64,000 bases of DNA, from positions 4,883,501-4,947,500 of the forward strand of contig JAHQIY010000008.1 of NCBI GenBank assembly GCA_019054805.1. The letters are read 5' to 3'. The stretch's first letter is position 1. Every line of letters begins with the position of its first letter. This DNA is from Brachionus manjavacas. Its lineage: Eukaryota; Rotifera; Eurotatoria; Ploima; Brachionidae. The notes under the pieces were generated by a model. The model was not told the DNA's origin. It worked only from the letters and a program-made list of their open reading frames with translations, and searched no databases. Of the stretch, positions 2 through 55,270 are shown one piece after another. Made by a program: the position numbers and the translations under genes.

Positions 2-2838
<2,837 letters not shown>

Positions 2839-2962
2839 ATAAAAAGGACCGGCCACATTAATGACTATATTTTAAAATGTATTATTGTTACTAAATTTTT
2901 AATTTTTTTATTAAAAAAAACTATTTTCAAATAAATAAAACTAATTTGAAATTAAATAATTT

Positions 2963-5900
2963 TTAATCATTCATGTTGAACAAACATTTTTTTTGAACGG
3001 CACTCTCAGTCGCCTCGAGCCATCGGTCAAACGAATACTGGCTCTCAGCTCTAAAAAAATAGACATGATTTTTAAATTGTAGTTTAAAAACAAAATCTTT
3101 GTTGATGCTATCTGACTCGCTTGGCACAGTGACAGAGTAGCCTAGCAATGGCAGACTGGCTAAAGGATATTCGTCTTGGTATGTTTTGTAGAAAAACAGG
3201 CAAAAATTGGTAAAAACAACCCAGAGCTTTTGCCATCCGTTACTATTTTTGAATTTTCTTAGCAAATAACCACTCAGCTGGTTAAGGTTGGACCTATGTA
3301 TATCGTTTGAGCCAACGCTGGTGTTTCGGTGCCAGCAAACATGCATTGTCGTATTGGCTCTGTGCTGTATATTTTGAGCGCTTACTTGATCTTCTTCGTT
3401 GCTCAGATCCAAATTGTTGTCCGAGGAGCTGTTTGATTTTAGTGTGCTGTAGTTACTCTTTTGATCGAGAAGCTTTGGTGAAACGCTTGTATTCGGTTCG
3501 CAGTTTTTGGCTTTCTCCACTGCCTCGTTCAAATCCTGCATCCATTTTGCTTTTTCTTGTGCATTTACGGCACACAGAAGCAGAGAACGCTTTGAGCAAT
3601 GAACCGTAAATGAGTTTTCTACGCTGATGTGTGCGTTTCCGTCCTCTATTTGAATATTTCTAAGCGGAAATTCGCCATGAACTTTGAACTGGAGACCTGA
3701 GTTTGTAGAACATTTAGCACAATAAAGCAATATGTCGTCAAACTTTAGAGAAAAAAATTTAATTGATTCAAAAAAAATTAATTTTATTTTAAAAAAAATA
3801 TTTTTTAAATTCTAGAATCTAAAAAAACTTCCTGTCAAATTTTGTGAAAAAAAATCATCTTTATGATATTTCGACCTATAATCAATTTTGTTAGATCACA
3901 AAAATTACCTTAAAAAATGGGAAATATTTTAGAAAAAAAATACTCCTATTAAATAGTACCACCTCAATAGTTTTATTTCTATAGTATGCTGTAAAGACCA
4001 TGGACAGACAATGAGTTTGTAAATAAAATCAATTTGACTTGTACTTTTTTGTACTTTAATATTTAGACTTAGCATGCATTGTACTTTTAGAACATTTTGT
4101 TATTTAGGATTCTGGTAAATTTTTTTGAAAAACTATGTAAAGAATTTAAAGAATTTCGTGTAAAAAGTGGAGAAATTTTAAAAAGAATCAAATGCTCATT
4201 GTTTTTACCTCAGGAATGTGATTTAAACAAAAAATCTCATAGAAAAGATTTTTACTATTAAAAAAAAATTAAGTTTATTGTCTTTTTTTAAGTTTAAACA
4301 GAAAAATTGTAATTTTTTTTCAATATTTTTATCGAATAATTATTTTCTCAAATTTTTTTTCACAACTATATTTAAATAACACTATTCAGCTTTTTAAAGG
4401 TTGTATTGGAGAGCTTTTAAATCTTCGCCATGTTATAAGATTGGCATACGAGGTTGAGAGGAGTTTAAGTTTTGCCTTTTAAATAAGAAGACATAGCAAC
4501 TGTCTTTTTAAATTAGAAATTCTCATATTTGTTAATTAAAAAGGCGCCTTACTTTGAAAGTTGATAATTTTAAAAGTTTGGGAAGTTGATTAAAAATTAG
4601 AAAATTTAAATGAATGGCGCAAAATTTGAGTTCTGAAAAATAATATAAAAGTTGAATGATATTCTTGTGACAACATCGCTCCTCAAATAAGCGAAGGCTT
4701 ATTCTGGAAAGGAATTCCTAAGCCAACTCAAATAACCAATCTTCAGATAAGTTGTACAAACTGTAAATACCATAATTTATCTAGTTTTACCCTTTAATAT
4801 CATTACCAAGCTAATTCACACTACAAAATAAAAAATAATAAAAGACAAAACTCAGAAAAATAATTAAATTTTTTTTTAATCCATATCTTCTCTCTTTCCT
4901 CTTTCTCTTTGAACCAAAAAAAAATGAAAGTTGTATGAGGCCTCGCTTCGGCACAACCTTGAGAGATCATCTCTCTAAAATTATCTATCTATCTATACTA
5001 ATTGAATACAAATAAAATTTTCAAATAAAATGAATTCGAATCCGAAATGGGAAAATTTTATAAATAATCTAAAAAATTTAGATATTTAAGAAAATGATCT
5101 TCTAAAGCTAAGCAAATTTAATCACGAGCTTTTTAAAAAAAAACATAAATTCATTGCTCAATGCTCAAATTTTTACATATCGAACTTATTCTAAAAAATA
5201 TATGTATCTTTTCGATGCGATATAAATGAACAGAGAAATAACTAAATATTTGAAAAAAATTTTAATTCTATGAAAATTTGCAGAAAGAATTAAATTTGAC
5301 AATTATAGATTCTGATTTCTGTAGGACTTGTTTCTCTAAAAAATTAAATAGTAATTTTATTTATGATCAACTGATCATAAAATTAACTAGCTTAAATGGA
5401 ATATATTGTCGCGATTCCACTTGAGTAGAAAACCGCTTGGAGTTAGTGCAATTTTTGAATTATTAAGAGGTTCAGACAAGAAAATATTTAAAGGTAAAAA
5501 TCCTTTCTGTACTTTTTGTACTTTTTCATAATTTAAATTTATTTGACCACCTCAATAGTTTTATTGACCCTCTACCTTTTTGTACTTTCTGTAATTTTTC
5601 TAATTATTTTTTTTGGCCCTGATACTTTTTGTACTTTTTCTAATTAATCTATTTGGCACTGTCCCTTTTTGTTCTTATTGATAATAAAAAAATTAATCAA
5701 TATTTTAAATATCAATTTTAAATTTAACTAATATTTTTCTTACCTCCAGCATACCCGAATCCCTAAACAAGGACTCCGCCCCGGACCCCGTTTAAGTTTT
5801 AATATAATGATTAAAATTACCATTAATTACAAAAAGTACAAAAAGGGACAGTGCCTAAAAAATTAATTAGAAATAGTACAAAAAGAAAGAGGGCCTAATA

Positions 5901-46337: not shown

Positions 46338-47447
46338 GGGTCCTACTAAAACACTGACCCTCATGTTTTTTGCAAAGCAAAAATATTTTCAAAAGTTTTA
46401 ATATATCATTTACATTGAATTTTTCTCTATTTTTTGAAAATTAAATTATTTTTTCTCCAAAATTATTATTTTTTGTGAAAATTGAATATTTTTATATTTT
46501 TAAAAACCTGACCCCCAACTGACCCCCATTTTTCTTGAAGAGAATTTAATGAACTTTCTAAAAATATGTCTAGATTTTCTCCAGGAAGTATAGTTTTTGA
46601 GATATTTTGATTATAATAAAAGATCCTAGTTATTTTGAAATCGGGTTTTAAAGTTTTAAAACGATATACTACTCGATCAAGAATTTTTGAGCTTTTTGAC
46701 TGTCATGTTTGTTTTCTTAATATCAATATTATTTTTAAAGGAAAAACTTTAATCTACTTTTAAAGAAACCTGACACCCTACTGACTCCCAATTTTATACG
46801 ACTGACCCCCATTTTTCTTGAAGAGAATTTAACGAGCTTTCTAAAAATGTGTCTAGTTTTTCTCCAGGAAGTATAGTTGGTAAAAATTATTAGTAAAAAT
46901 AAAAAATTTCGCCTCATTTAAGTTTATCAATTTTAACGTAATTTTAAATTTAATACATAGACTTTATTATTTATTAATTATTTTTTATTTTTTTTATTTA
47001 TTTTTTATTTTTTATTAAATTAGATGTTATAAATCAATAGCAATTTTTGTTAAAAAATTTAAAGAATTTATGAATAAAACATAAAATATCAAACAATTAT
47101 AAAAATTATTGAAATTATTGAAATTCTCGAAAACTATACTTCCTGGAGAAAAAATAGACACATTTTTAGAAAGCTCGTTAAATTCTCTTCAAGAAAAATG
47201 GGGGGTAAGTTGGGGGTCAGTCGTATAAAATTGGGGGTCAGTTGTAGGTCAGGTTTTTAAAAATATAAAAATATTCAATTTTCACAAAAAATAATAATTC
47301 TGGAGAAAAAATAATTTAATTTTCAAAAAATAGAGAAAAATTCAATGTAAATGGTATATTAAAACTTTTGAAAATATTTTTTCTTTGCAAAAAAAATGGG
47401 GGTCAGGAAATTAAAAAAAACTGGGGGTCAGTTCTTTAGGAGGAACC
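46338..47447. mobile_element. Large foldback element with repeated CTGACCCCC units
   Basis: The arms start GGGTCCTACTAAAACACTGA (left) and GGTTCCTCCTAAAGAACTGA (right, inverted) and stay alignable for about 250-300 bp. The phrase (A)CTGACCCCCA recurs at least four times on the left, and its complement GGGGGTCAG at least four times on the right. A second copy of part of the left arm lies at about 46770-46880 (TTTTCTTGAAGAGAATTTAA, then CTCCAGGAAGTATAG). No coding sequence found. Confidence 0.75.
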
Positions 47448-47911
47448 TTATTTTTTGATTTTAAAATCTGAGAAAAATGATTAATTTTAATTATAAGAAA
47501 AAAAAAGAATTATTCAAAATTTATGAGATTAAATTAAATTTATTGAATTAAATAAAATAAATCTACTAATTTTTTATTTACATATTTTTAAAATACTAGA
47601 TACAATTGATTATTTATTAATAATAATTAAATAAGTTTAATCAAAATAAAAAAAGTGAGAAAAATTAATTTTATACTTTTTCATACTTTATAGAAATAAT
47701 TACCCTCAAAATTTAGACCAGTTTACTTTTGATTCATTAACTTCATTTTATACAAAAAATGACTCTAAATTTAATTTTTTGATAAATGTTGATGGCAAGA
47801 AATTCAGAGTTTGTGCATAGGCTGATTTAAATCTTCCAGTTTTTAAGTTTTTTTTCTTGAGGAATTTTGTTTTTCAATTTGGTGCTCCTTTCAAATCTCT
47901 TGTAAAATATA

Positions 47912-48134
47912 CCGTATACCCTTACAAATAAGTGCCTCAAAATCGAGTCTTTTTTGAAAAATTTAGACCCTTAGATGATAGAAATTTTTCTTCAAATTAA
48001 ATATTACATAAGGATCTAAGCACGCTTTATAAGAAAGAAACATAGATGGAACTAAGCCACTTTTGATTAGCTTTACCACTTTTGATTACTTAAAAGGGAG
48101 TCTAAGGGGGGCACTTATTTGCAAGGGTATACGG
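47912..48134. mobile_element. 223-bp MITE with TA duplication (pogo-like ends)
   Basis: Terminal inverted repeat CCGTATACCCTT(A/G)CAAATAA, continuing as GTGCC on both sides, flanked by TA at 47910-47911 and 48135-48136. It shares the CCGTA terminus with the foldback element at 37759-38570. No coding sequence. Confidence 0.8.
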
Positions 48135-49539
48135 TAACTTAATTTTAAAGATGTCATTATTTAGCATCGGGCTTAATTAAAGACTAATTTATCTTACAAA
48201 ATCATATTTAAAATAAATTATAATTTAGTTGATATTTATTTATTTTATTAAAAAATCGGTTTAATAATAATAACTTATAAATATATTTAGGCAAATGTCT
48301 CCCCAATCTTCAAACAAGGTAGTATAACGAGTGTTGTTAATTATCGTTCAGATTCGCTCATTTCAGTTCCATGTAAAGTTCTTGAGTCACTGATCAAAGA
48401 CTATATTTTAGGGTAACCGGTCGAAAAAATCTATTGTCGAGTAAGCAACATGGTTTTGTCGCTAACAAGTCCTGTGCAACAAATTTCCTTGAAACCATCG
48501 ACTGACTTACTCCATGACTTACTGACTCCATGAGCCGTAGATTTCCTTCGGGCGTCATCTACCTTGACTTTACCAAAGCGTTTGACAAAGTTTTGCATGA
48601 GCTACACCTTGTCAATTTGGAGGCGTATGGAATCCCGACTGTTATAATCGACTGGGTTCGCTTTTTCCTCATTGGTCGAAAACAGCGCGTTGTAATTTGA
48701 AGTGTCATGACCGAGTGGAAGCCAGTTACAAGTGGGGTACCTCAAGGTTCTGTTCTTGGTCCACTTCTTTTCGTTATTTACGTCAATGACTTCCCTGATG
48801 TATGTCACTCAATCTGTAAGCTTTACGCTGACGACACAAAACTTATGGATTCTGTAATATGTGCTGATGACACCAGAAAGCTTCAAAAGGATCTCGACAA
48901 TCTGGTTGAATGGGCAAATCTTTGGCAAATGGGCTTTAATCAAAGAAAATGCGTAGTCATGCATCTTGGAGCAGACAACAAATGCTATGAATACAAAATA
49001 AGTGGTCGGAGCCTTGCAAAACAACCAGAGAGCGGGACTTGGAAATAATCAGTACAAGTGATCTTAAGTCAGGAAGACAGGCCAAGCGAGCAGGAGCAAG
49101 AGCCACGACGGTAGAATGTAAAGACAAGAATACATTTACTTTCTTTTCTCGTCAGCTGGTAAATCTGCTTTACAAGTCATTTGTTAGACCGCATCTTGAG
49201 TTTGCAGTGAGCGCTTGGAATCCCTACCGACGTGGGAATATTGATTTACTTGAGCGAGTTCAGAGGAAATTATCAAAACGGGTCTTTCTGACCAACATAC
49301 ATAAAAACTTTTCACCATACATTCAAATCTTTTCACCATACCTAGTTTTTATCAAAACATACATTTGCTGAAAATTATACAAAATTCTTAAAAATATACA
49401 TAGGACTGAAAAATAAACATACAGTCGAAAAACATACAGATTGCTAACAAACATACTGGTTTTTTAAAAAAGTCACTTTTAAATTTAGTGCTGTTTAATT
49501 TTAGCAGATAAATAAAAGAATTATTTTTAAATAAAAGAG

Positions 49540-50492
49540 ACGATATATTTTTATTTTTGTATTGTCAAAAATTTTAGTTACAGCATTGTATGAAGCGTCC
49601 CAAGCATCTTGCATGACATATTTTGGTTTAAATTATTATTCCTAACCTTTTGGTTAATCTTCTTGTACCATTGTAATCTCTTGTTCATGGCTTGTTAAAC
49701 CAAAGATAATGGGGTTTATTTTATTTTTAAAATCTGTACGGGCTAAAACAATTAATGGAAAACCATTTTTTGTAAGTTTATAAGTTGAGTCAATGTGATA
49801 ACAACCATTTAAATTTGAGTTTATTTTTAGGATTAATTTTTTTGTATAACATTATATTAACATGACCAAGTTCAAAACCATTATTAAGAATTATATTCCT
49901 TTTTCATTATATTTAATGTTGAAAAAAAAACGGTTCATCTTTATCTAAATCAGACGAATATAAATTATCTTTAATTATATTTATTACTTATTAATTGAAT
50001 TTGTATTTAGTTTGCTGTTACGAAAATCTGTAAAAAAATTTTGTAACTGTAAAAAAATAATTATTTCATAATTATTATGTTAACTTTTAGTTTAAAATTT
50101 ATTTACCTGTCTTAATTTTGGAATCAAAATTGTAGGTAAATTATACTCATTTATTAATGCATTATGTACTACACTTGGAATTAAATCAGGTTGTAATTTC
50201 AAGCATTTAATAATTTTATCTTTTACAATTGGATTTATACCTCATGTTTTTTTGATACCATTTACTGTACCCTCGTGTTTACCACGTTGATATACATAAA
50301 TTTTTTTATTTGTTGTAAACATATAGATTCTTGATTTAAAATTACACTTGTCTTTTTTACAATTACAAGTACGATGAATTCTTGTCATAAAATGGGAGTT
50401 ACTTTGTAGGCTTGATTTACATTCGATGCAGCTATACGGAACATACTCATTTATTGTTACACTTGTGTAATAAAAGTTATATGTAATATATA
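49540..50492 (-). pseudogene. MULE transposase, C-terminal part of the surviving coding sequence
   Basis: Runs from the GINGER2 border (50492) down to about 49540 on the minus strand: INEYVPYSCIECKSS, YVYQRGKHEGTVNG, LKLQPDLIPSVVHNALINEY, then a gap with stops, then DSTYKLTKNGFPLIVLARTD and a following segment ending QDAWDASYNAVTKIF. Order and motifs match MULE transposases; several stops. Confidence 0.75.
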
Positions 50493-50732
50493 TGTAACAG
50501 TAAAATTCCTTAACACGGAAATTTCTAAATTTACTGGTCCATCAGTAATAGTAAAATGAATATGAAAAAAATTATGTTTTGTTTTTTTACTAGTAATTTT
50601 GTAAATTTACTTTTCAATCAGTAATTATGTAAAACAATTTTTATTGCTTCAGTAATTAACTGAAACTAATTTCAGTAAAAAACTAAAACTTTTTCAGTAA
50701 ATTTTCTGAATTTGTAATTTGAAAAATAAAAA

Positions 50733-52423
50733 ATGAATTTATCAATACTTTTGGTTATTTTTGCCATGGTTCTAGACCTGGCAACTAATTCTCAACCCGA
50801 AATTTTAAATGTTGATCAAGAACGCATGCACAGAGAAAAGTTTTATTCAGCATTCGAAGCGTTTACGATCGAAGAAAGCCTCAAAAATCCCGATAAAAAG
50901 AAAAAAAAAACTCGGACGATTACATCGGCGACTGAATATCAAGCTTTAATTCTCAAAATCGAATCTGCACTAGAGAAAAAAACAAAGAAAACTCCTGAAG
51001 AATATTATTTTCTAAACCAATATGAAATTTTAGTTGTTGGCGATACTAAAAAAATAATAAAAAAAAGGAAAAACCAGGACGAACCGATAAGATTTCTCGT
51101 TCCTTGGGACCAAATTTTTGAAACGATTTATCGTATCCACGATCAAATCGGACACAAAGCACGTGATATTATGATAAAAAATTTAACGAAAATCACTTAA
51201 ACATAACAGTTGACATGATCGTAAGTAAGTTATGAAAAAATTTACCTGTAAAAATAAAAATGTGTCAATTAATTAATTAAATTTTAAGTTTTCATCAATA
51301 CATGTGAGCAATGTATTATGAATAAAAAAAGAAGCAAGACCACTGGTGTAGTTGTAAAGCCTATTCTCTCAAATAATTTTAATAGCCGTGCTCAAATGGA
51401 TTTAATTGATATGCAAACGTTACCGGACGGTGATTTCAAGTGGCTTTTAGTTTACCAAGATCATCTAACTAAATTCATCTTGTTACAAGCACTCAAAGCT
51501 AAATCGGCAATTGAAGTTGTAAATGCACTCTTCGACATTTTCACATTGATTGGTATTCCAATGATTTTGCAATCTGATAATGGTCGTGAATTTCGAAACC
51601 AAATAGTTGAAGCGTTAAAATCAATGTGGCCAGATATTAAATTTGTTCATGGCCGAGCTAGACATCCTCAGTCTCAAGGTAGCGTAGAAAGAGCCAACGC
51701 GGAAATAAAAAAAATGCTTGCTACTTGGATGCGAGAAAATAAATCGACCAAATGGTCGACTAGAATTAAATTTGTCCAACTAAAAAAAAATCATTCATTC
51801 CATTCAGGGATAAAATGTAGTCCCTATAAAGCTGTTTTTGGCGTTGAAACACCACTCGGCTTAAGTTCCACAAGTATACCTGCTGAAGAATGGGGCAAAT
51901 TGGATTCAGCTAAGCAGTTGTTCGATTTAGTTGGTTACGAGTACGACTCCTCCGAAATACTGGAAGATGAAGACGAAGGCCATGATGACATATTTGACCC
52001 GAATAGACCCGAAGAAGTAAGAAATATATCCCAGAAGCTTATATTGGAGACATTGTTGTTTTGCCCATACCAGAAGTTGATAAAGGTCTCACTGAAGCTC
52101 CGAATTTGGTCTGTCGAATAGTTGACATTGACTTTGATAAGTCAATATATGAATTAGCTTGTGAAACTGGAGTGCTTAATACTCTGTTTGCAAGAAACAG
52201 CTTTGACTCGGTAAAAGATTGTTCTATAGAGCTAAATTTAAAACTAGACAAAGCTTTAAGTGTGAGGCAAGCAGTAAATGAATTATCAATTGGTGGTGGT
52301 CAAGGCATGGTAAAGTGCAACTGTACTGGTCAATGTATGACAAATCGATGTGGTTGTAAAAAGTCGCAGTTGTTATGTAACTCAAGATGTCATGGAGGCA
52401 ATTCAAGCTGCAAAAACAAATAA
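50733..52423 (+). pseudogene. GINGER2/KRBA2-like integrase-transposase with frameshifts
   Basis: ORF 50733-51200 carries the N-terminus and the HH half of an HHCC zinc domain (YRIHDQIGHKARDIM). A one-base shift is needed near 51200, and a 68-nt GTAAGT..TAAG intron (51221-51288) leads to the CC half (CEQCIMNKK). Next comes a DDE integrase core: RAQMDLIDMQTLPDG, LQSDNGREFRNQ and PQSQGSVERANAEIK, with 36 residues between the second Asp and the Glu. A second shift near 52040 leads to frame 52061-52423, which ends in a Cys-rich CXC tail (KCNCTGQCMTNRCGCKKSQ). Catalytic residues are intact, but the two shifts make it non-functional as read. Confidence 0.85.
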
Positions 52424-52460
52424 GCTTTTTTTTTATTAGACTAATTAAAAAAATTACTAT

Positions 52461-52642
52461 AACTTAAAGAGATAAATATTTGTTTTTTTAAATTATGAAA
52501 ATCTACGTTTCGTTTCAGTAATTTACTAAACTAGTTTCAGTAAATTACTAAAACTTAAAGAGATGAATATTTGTTTTTTTATATAATGAAAATCTACGTT
52601 TCATTTCAGTAATTTACTAAAATAGTTTCAGTAAATTACTGA
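52461..52642 (+). repeat. Tandem duplication of a 91-bp subterminal unit in GINGER2
   Basis: 52461-52551 and 52552-52642 both start AACTTAAAGAGAT and include CTACGTTTC(G/A)TTTCAGTAATTT. Each contains two CAGTAA(A)TTTACTAA-type sites, so the duplication doubles potential transposase-binding motifs. Confidence 0.8.
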
Positions 52643-52989
52643 AAAAATTAAAAAATCAGTAAATAACTAAAATTTATTAATTTTTTTATGTTTTACATAT
52701 TTACTGATGGACCAGTAAATTTACAAATTTACGTGTTTTAAAAATTTACGGTAACAAATAGATTAAACTCACCATGACTCTTAAAAACACAAACAAATTC
52801 AAAATCATTTTTGCTCTGTTGAACACGTTTAAGTAATGCTGATAATGATGGTGATGATCTTTCAGACTAAGTACGAGACGTTATATTTGAATTTGTTAAA
52901 AGACTGTTTTTAGACCTAAAAATACTTAAAATTGAATCAGACTTGGTTTTATCAGTATTATCTAGTTTTATCGAACTTTGGTCAGATAA

Positions 52990-53259
52990 TTATCAGTTGT
53001 CTTGACTGTAGTCGATTTGTGTACCAATTTTATTTGATTCTTTTTCAAATGATGACTTTAATCCACTTGTTTTAGGGACGTTTTTTTCCATTCCAATATC
53101 GATATTTTCTTTTAAATCATCATCTATGTCATCTAGAGAATCATTTAATTCATCCGTTCTTTTTTTTTCAGCTTCTGAATGATCAGGTTCTTTATTGTTT
53201 CTTTTTTTATAAGTTCTTGTGGCCTTATAATGAATTGTTTGTTTTGTCCGTCTATTCAT
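52990..53259 (-). pseudogene. MULE transposase N-terminal exon/segment
   Basis: The 88-residue ORF starts MNRRTKQTIHYKATRTYKKR and is rich in Lys/Glu/Asp (DELNDSLDDIDDDLKENIDI). After a stop near 52985 the reading continues as SDQSSIKLDNTDKTKSDSIL and SPSLSALLKRVQQSKNDFEF to the GINGER2 border. It lies just inside the 3' inverted repeat of the MULE. Confidence 0.6.
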
Positions 53260-53642
53260 TTTATTAAATTTTTGAAAATAATTTTAAATTTCAAATTTTT
53301 ATTTTTTAATATGCCAATTGTATGTATGTTTTTTAGTATGTTTGTATGTTTTGAAAAATTTTGTGTATGCTGAAAAGATATGAATGTATGTTGAGAAGAT
53401 TTTCATTTATGTTAAAAAAACAAACCCTTTCAAAACTGGTTCCTGAACTTAAAACAAAGCCATCTAGAAAGAAGAGAGGCTCTTGGTTGGATAACAGGGA
53501 GCACAAGAAGAGGTCAAATGGCTATTGAAGGACAGCTTGTAAGAAATTGTGGAGCCAGGCATAATTTTTTTACAGATCAAATCGCCGGAAAAAGGAACAC
53601 ACTTGACGCGACAACTCGAAGTATAAGTGATACAAATTTTTT

Positions 53643-53705
53643 AACGCCCTGCTAAAACAACCATCGATCATTGTTAATGCTCGATGGCTGTTTTAGCAGG
53701 GCGTT
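53643..53705 (+). repeat. Strong hairpin in the retrotransposon 3' UTR
   Basis: 25-bp arms with one mismatch: AACGCCCTGCTAAAACA(A/G)CCATCGA and its complement, with a 13-base loop. It overlaps and follows the RT stop codon and precedes the trinucleotide tail by about 45 bp. It could be a 3' recognition structure for the element's RT or a small palindromic insertion. Confidence 0.8.
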
Positions 53706-53775
53706 TACATGCGCATCTGCTCGGGATTTAGGTCCCTATAGCATACCTTACTACTACTAATAATAATAATAACAA

Positions 53776-55270
53776 TTACGCATGTTTAAAACCCTTTCAT
53801 TTAAAAAAAGGGGGCCCGGTTTCTATCGGAGCTCAAGAAGGTTCTAGAAAAGAGAAGAGTGCTTCTTCGCGTAAAAAGAATAGGAACAATTCTTATTATT
53901 GTATTATTTTTTTTAAAAAACATCCTTGTTTGTCTCTCTTAAATTATTTAATTTCAATAAATAAATAAATTTACATTAATTCGATAGCTTTATTATCAAA
54001 ATCTCAGTTATTTCCTAAATTTGAACGAGAATCATTTCTTATAAAAATATTATCCAAAACAATTAGACCATTTGATGGATTGTAGCCTATAACTGCCTCT
54101 AAAAAATACTATGGTTTACCAAACAATGCATTCACTTCACTTATATAGTTCTTTGAGCCTTAAAATTAAAAGTGATCAAATCTATGTCTTGTGCAAAGAA
54201 GCAAAATTCTAAATAGAAAACTGATTCATTCTAAAACAAATTCTTTGATGCTTGATCTTTTTTGTAATAGTGATATTCAATCGATGATCTTTTTTAATTT
54301 TTCCAAATTTTTGAAAAAATTAATACAAACTCTTTTTCCTGAGAATTATTACTTTTTATGGGCTTTTTGGAAAAATTTCCTCTTAATTAGAAAATTAAGT
54401 TAAAACAAGTAAATTATATTTAATTGTCTTTCAAAGAAAATTTAGTAAAAAGGCATTTTGAAATTTCATACCAAACTTATAATAAACATAAAGAAAATAA
54501 TTTAATAACTTTTGTTATAAAATTCAAAAGCTTGTTCTGCATATGAAACAAAGTGAAACAATTTTTGCTTCTACTACTGCAGAAGCCTGCAAAATCTGTG
54601 CCAATTAATTGGGTCTTATTTTTATTACTTTTAAATAATAAAAGCATAATTTTCAATCTTTTAAATAATTTGCTAAGCTTTTACAGTAACATTCTTTGGG
54701 TCTAGTGGCTCATGAGAAGGTTTGTTCACACAAAAAGTATTCTATTATTAATTTTTTGTTTCAATATGGAATTGTTTTCTAGTACCATCTAAATTTTTTT
54801 AATGTTAACTATTAGAATAAGAATAATTTTTATTTTTTTCCAAGTTGTTACCAATATTTAACATTTTTTTTAAATAAAATTATCGAAAAGTCAAGAATAA
54901 ATTTTAATTTTTTTGAAACCAATATTTTATATTTTATTTTTTTTTGCCATGACATAATTATTAAAAATTCAAAATGCTAAATCATATAATTTTAAACTTG
55001 TAAAATTTTAAAATTATTTGTTTATCTGTACCAAGCTATCCTTCAGAAACTATAAACCATTAATTAGTTTTTTCTTGTAAATATCAAAAAAATAGACTAA
55101 ATTCTTTAAGAGTATATTTGTAATTTAATTAGAGTTACATTAATTAGAGGAAAATTAATTAATTTAAAAAATTAAATTTAAAAGGGACGAACTTAATAAA
55201 TTAAACTTAAATGAAATCCAGGAAATATTTGGATTTTTTAAATTCAAATTTCTTTATTTAACTCTAGCTA
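53776..55270. other. A/T-rich stretch without recognisable gene
   Basis: A short G/C-richer segment follows the tail (about 53800-53880), with a TTTCAATAAATAAATAAAT tail at about 53950, perhaps another truncated retroelement 3' end. The ORF at 54191-54403 has no recognisable domain. Confidence 0.45.

Follow-up and report, generated by a model that had tools for sequence, protein, structure and literature searches.

A non-LTR retrotransposon split by a Mutator-like element, itself split by a Ginger2-like element, in the rotifer Brachionus manjavacas

In what order did three transposable elements, now lying one inside another, arrive at a single locus in the genome of the rotifer Brachionus manjavacas? 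The locus lies in a 64,000-nucleotide stretch of contig JAHQIY010000008.1 (C8:4883501-4947500; hereafter the window), and genome searches were performed on the window's own assembly (GCA_019054805.1; 61 contigs, 114,169,980 bases); the G+C content is 27%. Between 48289 and approximately 53772 of the window, with borders read to the base, a retrotransposon without long terminal repeats (non-LTR) is split by a Mutator-like element (MULE), which is in turn interrupted by a Ginger2-like element. The layering and its breakpoints are observed directly, and the three-layer nesting, confirmed here, represents an ordinary kind of genomic history. The initial annotation had placed the cluster at 48298..53775; the interval is real, but its recognisable start is 48289 and its end is at approximately 53772. 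Three successive ordinary transpositions, of the retrotransposon, then the MULE, then Ginger2, explain the locus with a probability of roughly 0.93. A chance origin of the layering was ruled out by tests of the terminal inverted repeats (TIRs), the target duplication and the empty sites.

The outer layer and its junction with the MULE comprise the following features:

48289..49279, plus strand: layer 1, left part; 5'-truncated non-LTR retrotransposon with a reverse transcriptase (RT) domain, several stops and frame breaks (RVT_1 matches; DNA identity to paralogues)
49271..49279, no strand: left 9-bp target duplication TATCAAAAC, one base changed (empty-site comparison)
53428..53436, no strand: right 9-bp target duplication TTTCAAAAC, the form present at empty sites (empty-site comparison)
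53437..53772, plus strand: layer 1, right part; C-terminal remnant of the retrotransposon and its 3' end, with a hairpin and an AAT-rich tail (paralogue matches)

The RT frame had been proposed to stop at 49279 and to resume in register at approximately 53437, and both the window, which reads KLSK|LVPELK, and the paralogue L078, which reads KFSKLVPELKSKP, agree with this. TATCAAAAC and TTTCAAAAC are identical at 8 of 9 bases, and random pairs of 9-mers from the window matched at at least eight positions in 0.1% of 200,000 draws. When the genome was searched with 49200-50492, 33 matches were obtained. Besides the window itself, two fall in MULE sequence and 30 in the retrotransposon; of the latter, 28 stop at query bases 72-92, i.e. 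around 49279, and two stop earlier; the right flank matches many of the same places. Twenty retrotransposon loci were fetched, comprising 18 of the 30 left-flank matches and two from the right-flank search. Both flanks are present in 17 and are adjacent and uninterrupted in all 17, while a right-flank match is missing from the other three (L089, L093 and L094). The flanks overlap by exactly nine bases in 16 of the 17, and the remaining locus, L088 (C16:699600-701900, about 1193), carries an 8-bp deletion at the very spot of the MULE insertion. Among the ten closest loci (L077-L086), eight read TTTCAAAAC, one reads TTTCAAAAA and one reads TTTTAAAAC. The second base of the 9-mer is never A in the 17 loci that retain both flanks, and therefore the right duplication is ancestral and the left one has changed at one base. 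With the empty-site paralogues, the outer junction can be placed at single-base precision, and this check, run in the same genome, bears out the placement of a MULE with a 9-bp duplication at 49280-53427, since the breakpoints match 49280/53427 in 16 of 17 loci. Assemblies tend to fail at repeats, and unrelated repeats could in principle have been misjoined here; however, a misjoin would not be expected to produce inverted ends paired at matching places or empty sites whose flanks overlap by exactly 9 bp, the contig measures 5.2 Mb, and such an artefact is highly improbable.

The outermost layer is a dead, 5'-truncated copy of an apurinic endonuclease (APE)-type non-LTR retrotransposon. Pfam profile scans matched RVT_1 on 48701-49045 (E 4.4e-13, above the cut-off) and on 48518-48700 (E 6.2e-4, below it). 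In the C12 paralogue, L077, RVT_1 was matched at E 6.9e-20 and is preceded upstream by the AP-like endonuclease PF14529 (Exo_endo_phos_2; E 5.8e-7, above the cut-off), a domain not present in the truncated window copy; the family is therefore of the APE type. RVT_1, an upstream Exo_endo_phos_2 in the paralogue, 5' truncation and a short-repeat 3' tail are all shared with APE-type non-LTR retrotransposons, and nothing distinctive was established that sets this element apart from them. Where the left flank aligns with the 20 fetched loci, DNA identity ranges from 69.7 to 94.6%, and from 80.8 to 94.6% in L077-L086. Eight close paralogues share 89.4-91.7% identity with the window copy over 48700-49279 and 91.7-97.0% among themselves, with the exception of L084 (88.2-90.4%). 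Approximately 120 bp near 53495 are missing from the window copy relative to paralogues such as L077. The retrotransposon frame matched 791 proteins at E<=0.001, of which one among the 120 listed is named, from Brachionus calyciflorus, and its C-terminus presumably resembles those of CR1/Jockey-like elements.

The retrotransposon extends farther upstream in the copies on C12 (L077), C7 (L086), C4 (L084) and C31 (L082). The window copy (48289) and the C11 copy (L078, position 255) are truncated at nearly the same base, with differing AT-rich sequences upstream, and this shared base is either a coincidence or a drop-off point. The 3' part contains a near-perfect hairpin at 53643-53705 (-43 kcal/mol, z -10.4, equalled by 0 of 200 shuffles), part of whose inverted repeat recurs in the paralogues.

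The middle layer comprises the following features:

49280..53427, minus strand: layer 2, MULE with GGGT...ACCC inverted ends and transposase remnants (TIR alignment; PF10551)
49654..49851, minus strand: MULE transposase fragment, start of the catalytic domain (PF10551, E 8.2e-4, 20.2 bits)
50242..50490, minus strand: MULE transposase fragment directly left of Ginger2 (N-terminal-most part of the aligned piece 49400-50490)
52757..53283, minus strand: MULE, presumed N-terminal side of the transposase, right of Ginger2 (fixed-register extension to the C27 paralogue)

The MULE begins with GGGTCT at 49280 and ends with AAACCC at 53427. Its inverted ends align with a score of 78, against a best of 38 in 200 shuffles, and are 82% alike over 71 bases in the window self-comparison. 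Target site duplications of MULEs are about 8-11 bp long, and the 9 bp observed here fall within this range. PF10551 on the window fragment lies below the curated cut-off of 27.6 bits, and the same fragment has 67 matches in its own genome at E<=0.001, itself included. Ten frames from MULE relatives were scanned, and PF10551 was found in five, four of them above the cut-off, including L038 and L039 (E 2.4e-17 and 2.5e-17, respectively). The MULE assignment is weak on the window fragment and firm on its same-genome relatives, and the class originally proposed is supported by PF10551 in these relatives, the TIRs and the 9-bp duplication.

At the DNA level, matches to the left MULE part are limited to C27 (67% over approximately 440 bases) and a 71-base stretch on C7 (77%), and the right part has no match within it among the best 40 of 137 candidates scored in the genome search. 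The family therefore either has few copies or has diverged beyond the reach of a DNA search of this kind. The transposase is degenerate and contains stops; by reading, the C-terminal part present in the C27 relative is missing from the window MULE, as are a complete catalytic triad and a zinc-finger C-terminus. The C27 paralogue has a Cys/His-rich stretch, discerned by eye only, and Pfam gave one insignificant match on its 270-aa frame and none on its two other pieces; the sole listed homologue of this frame is from B. plicatilis (67% identity over 79%). The element is therefore similar to other MULEs in its 9-bp duplication, its inverted ends and the PF10551 transposase of its relatives, but differs in that the later transposase part is absent from the window copy and few DNA-level relatives were found. 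By reading, the C27 paralogue (L068, C27:110000-117000) lies just downstream of another retrotransposon fragment, and a further MULE-end-like match occurs in L068 at about 116425-116469.

The inner layer comprises the following features:

50493..52756, plus strand: layer 3, Ginger2-like element, TGTAACAG...CGGTAACA (TIRs, siblings, integrase core)
50730..51200, plus strand: N-terminal frame, presumed zinc-finger region (open reading frame; no Pfam match)
51288..52121, plus strand: integrase-type transposase core (PF00665; D38/D97/E134 of the frame)
52007..52423, plus strand: C-terminal Cys-rich frame, shifted relative to the core (frame reading; comparison with C13)
50489..50492, no strand: left flank of Ginger2, TATA (window reading; family loci show 4-bp duplications)
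52757..52760, no strand: right flank of Ginger2, AATA (three of four bases match the left flank)

Published features of Ginger2, as described in the relevant passages of PMC2836005, are TIRs of approximately 50-180 bp, TGTNR ends and 4-bp duplications at AT-rich targets with a 6-bp preference for RTATAY, and a passage of PMC10045372 gives 5 bp as an alternative length of the duplication. The window element carries TGTNR termini, with TGTAACAG at the left and a right end, CGGTAACA, that reads TGTTACCG when inverted, and its ends align with gaps over about 140-150 bp, within the published range (score 93; best of 200 shuffles 39). PF00665 was matched on the core at E 7.9e-6 and 26.5 bits, below the cut-off of 32.6, and D38, D97 and E134, residues chosen by motif, are placed like a DDE triad with 36 residues between the last two. 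At E<=0.001 the core matches 995 proteins; among the 120 listed, many bear PF00665, several contain PF17921, and 20 are named KRAB-A domain-containing protein 2 or similarly. The highest identities among the listed homologues with names are to Brachionus calyciflorus P0010 (73% over 59% of the query) and P0107 (78% over 52%). Ginger2 elements are further characterised by an H2C2 zinc finger and by the lack of GPY/F and YPYY motifs; no Pfam match was obtained in the N-terminal frame (50730-51197).

Siblings on C11, without an internal part, and C13 are 98.8% and 98.4% identical to the window copy, respectively, and the pieces of a sibling on C50 are 98-99% identical; the 85% obtained for C50 over the whole four-copy multiple alignment is an artefact of a nested insert in C50. 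The window copy has frame breaks and small deletions not common to the C11, C13 and C50 copies, and approximately 130 bases present in C13 are missing from the region of its C-terminal Cys-rich frame. The genome search, in which 40 of 145 candidates were scored, listed 148 whole or partial matches, and short derivatives retaining both ends are numerous among them. Twenty family loci were retrieved; 13 of these could be traced to both ends, and nine of the 13 show perfect 4-bp duplications (TATA four times, and TAAA, TTTA, AATA, TATC and CCTC), compared with perfect matches in 1.1% of draws of random 4-mers. The assignment to Ginger2, and with it the TGT..ACA GINGER2-like element proposed at 50493-52756, fits the published features tested: termini, TIR length, 4-bp AT-rich family duplications and an integrase-type core. 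A Ginger1 identity was rejected, there being no CCGG or CCGT, the Ginger1 target duplications according to PMC2836005, among the nine perfect duplications.

The C50 sibling (L049, C50:58700-63500, 1068-3542) is itself interrupted by an insert of approximately 2.5 kb, which has a long frame reading by eye as reverse transcriptase, an AAAT-repeat tail and a duplication of about six bases, ACTGGT; the opposite nesting therefore also occurs.

The nesting of Ginger2 within the MULE does not depend on the transposase register, because the MULE inverted ends lie on both of its sides. A minus-strand transposase had been described as interrupted in register at 52757/50492. The left side of this claim is strongly supported: the piece 49400-50490 aligns with the C27 paralogue at a score of 405 (best of 100 shuffles 74) and with B. 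plicatilis P0241 at 291 (best of 100 shuffles 58), and a single 270-codon frame in the C27 paralogue spans the Ginger2 insertion point. To the right of Ginger2, the last 36 codons are in register with 50490 and below, and a fixed-register extension from them to C27 reaches a score of 31, with six identities in 20 residues; 1 of 5000 shuffles did as well, as did 7 of 127,780 positions in the window, presumably including the true one. An EFN.F motif that straddles the junction is common to the window, C27 and P0241. MULE transposase is thus probably encoded in register on both sides of Ginger2, on evidence of moderate strength. The inner empty site itself consists of one distant paralogue at the protein level, together with the inverted ends.

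Ordering nested clusters by interruption, the interrupted element being the older, is established practice, as in the REANNOTATE passages of PMC2672092, and the same reasoning is applied here with duplications and paralogous empty sites. The initial annotation held that the insertion order was fixed without a dating model. For two steps this stands, as the nesting shows insertion of a MULE into the retrotransposon and of Ginger2 into a MULE; it is divergence, instead, that suggests that the MULE already occupied its present locus when Ginger2 arrived. Where the MULE lay when Ginger2 entered it is not fixed by the nesting, and Ginger2 might have inserted elsewhere and then moved with the MULE into the retrotransposon. 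Indirect evidence makes such a joint arrival unlikely: the C11 and C13 Ginger2 siblings are 98-99% identical, whereas the MULE ends are 82% alike and the MULE lacks a close copy, which suggests that it is old and dead, and no second composite copy was present among the genome matches listed. The two ends of a MULE may, however, already differ when it inserts. Divergence agrees with the stepwise order: with Ginger2 at 98.8 and 98.4% to its siblings, the retrotransposon at 89.4-91.7% to its eight close paralogues and the MULE at 67% to its nearest DNA relative, the retrotransposon is older and Ginger2 youngest.

Several observations weigh against this order or its details. Sibling divergences of different families do not form one clock, and 4 of the 13 Ginger2 family loci show no perfect 4-bp duplication (two match at three of four bases and two at two of four). 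The duplication of the window copy, TATA/AATA, matches at three of four bases, a level of agreement reached in 9% of random draws, and therefore this duplication alone proves little. A near-identical empty MULE copy was not found among the matches listed in the genome DNA searches. P0241 supports the fixed register only modestly (score 20 over nine residues with four identities, equalled by 15 of 5000 shuffles and 97 of 127,780 positions). The MULE protein right of Ginger2 gave no significant free alignment (39 with C27 against a best shuffle of 64; 49 with P0241 against 59), and a stop codon interrupts its frame 36 codons upstream of the junction. These last two points would be expected if the DNA right of Ginger2 were non-coding and the 'interrupted transposase' only half true, but the rarity of the C27 fixed-register extension and the shared EFN.F motif make this doubtful, if somewhat less so than a joint arrival.

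Given what is established for each family, the three successive transpositions would have proceeded as follows. An APE-type non-LTR retrotransposon would have entered by target-primed reverse transcription, leaving a 5'-truncated copy. A cut-and-paste MULE would then have entered this copy, with repair of a staggered 9-bp cut producing the TTTCAAAAC duplication. Ginger2, with its integrase-like DDE transposase, would have entered the MULE at a TATA-like site with a 4-bp stagger, most likely within the transposase gene. Later mutation would finally have broken all three elements, each of which looks broken in the window.

The locus provides a clean, internally checked case of transposon stratigraphy in a rotifer genome, leaving general ideas unchanged, and supplies coordinates for a recent Ginger2-like family and for a MULE family with few DNA-level relatives. 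The former is the one mildly new item. The Ginger2 family may tentatively be regarded as recently, perhaps still, active because 98-99% identical copies lie in different places, many short derivatives share its ends and its target is TATA-like, although we hold this to be less probable than not. In TGTNR ends, long TIRs, 4-bp AT-rich duplications, integrase-type DDE core and short end-sharing derivatives, the family resembles the Ginger2/Tdd elements described in the corresponding passages of Bao, Kapitonov and Jurka (2010, PMC2836005); the hosts given there are hydra, sea anemone, aphid, nematode, sea snail, lancelet, a protist and a fungus, whereas the host here is a rotifer. Literature searches combining Brachionus or rotifer with Ginger surfaced no paper describing Ginger elements in rotifers, as judged by titles or the beginnings of abstracts. 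In the portions available, the sole 'ginger' in PMC7943196 is an author name, 'rotifer' occurs in PMC2836005 only in reference titles, the rotifer mention in PMC10045372 concerns an IS5-like element, and the passages of PMC6431247 on Mutator-like transposons contain no rotifer MULE. The words 'ginger', 'mule' and 'mutator' are absent from the text of PMC6555955, on Brachionus repeats.

In a self-comparison of the window for further copies of the layers, every listed match touching 48000-54000 stays inside that region. Other repeats lie nearby. Just upstream of the retrotransposon, a short stretch at 47910-48136 with inverted ends TACCGTATACCCTT...AAGGGTATACGGTA resembles, by reading, a small non-autonomous DNA transposon. 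An inverted pair at 46354-47406, of about 250-290 bases and 84% alike, belongs to a many-copy repeat family, and a repeat unit of approximately 490 bp at 55214-55700 matches 39 other places at 88-93% (best 40 of 167 candidates scored).

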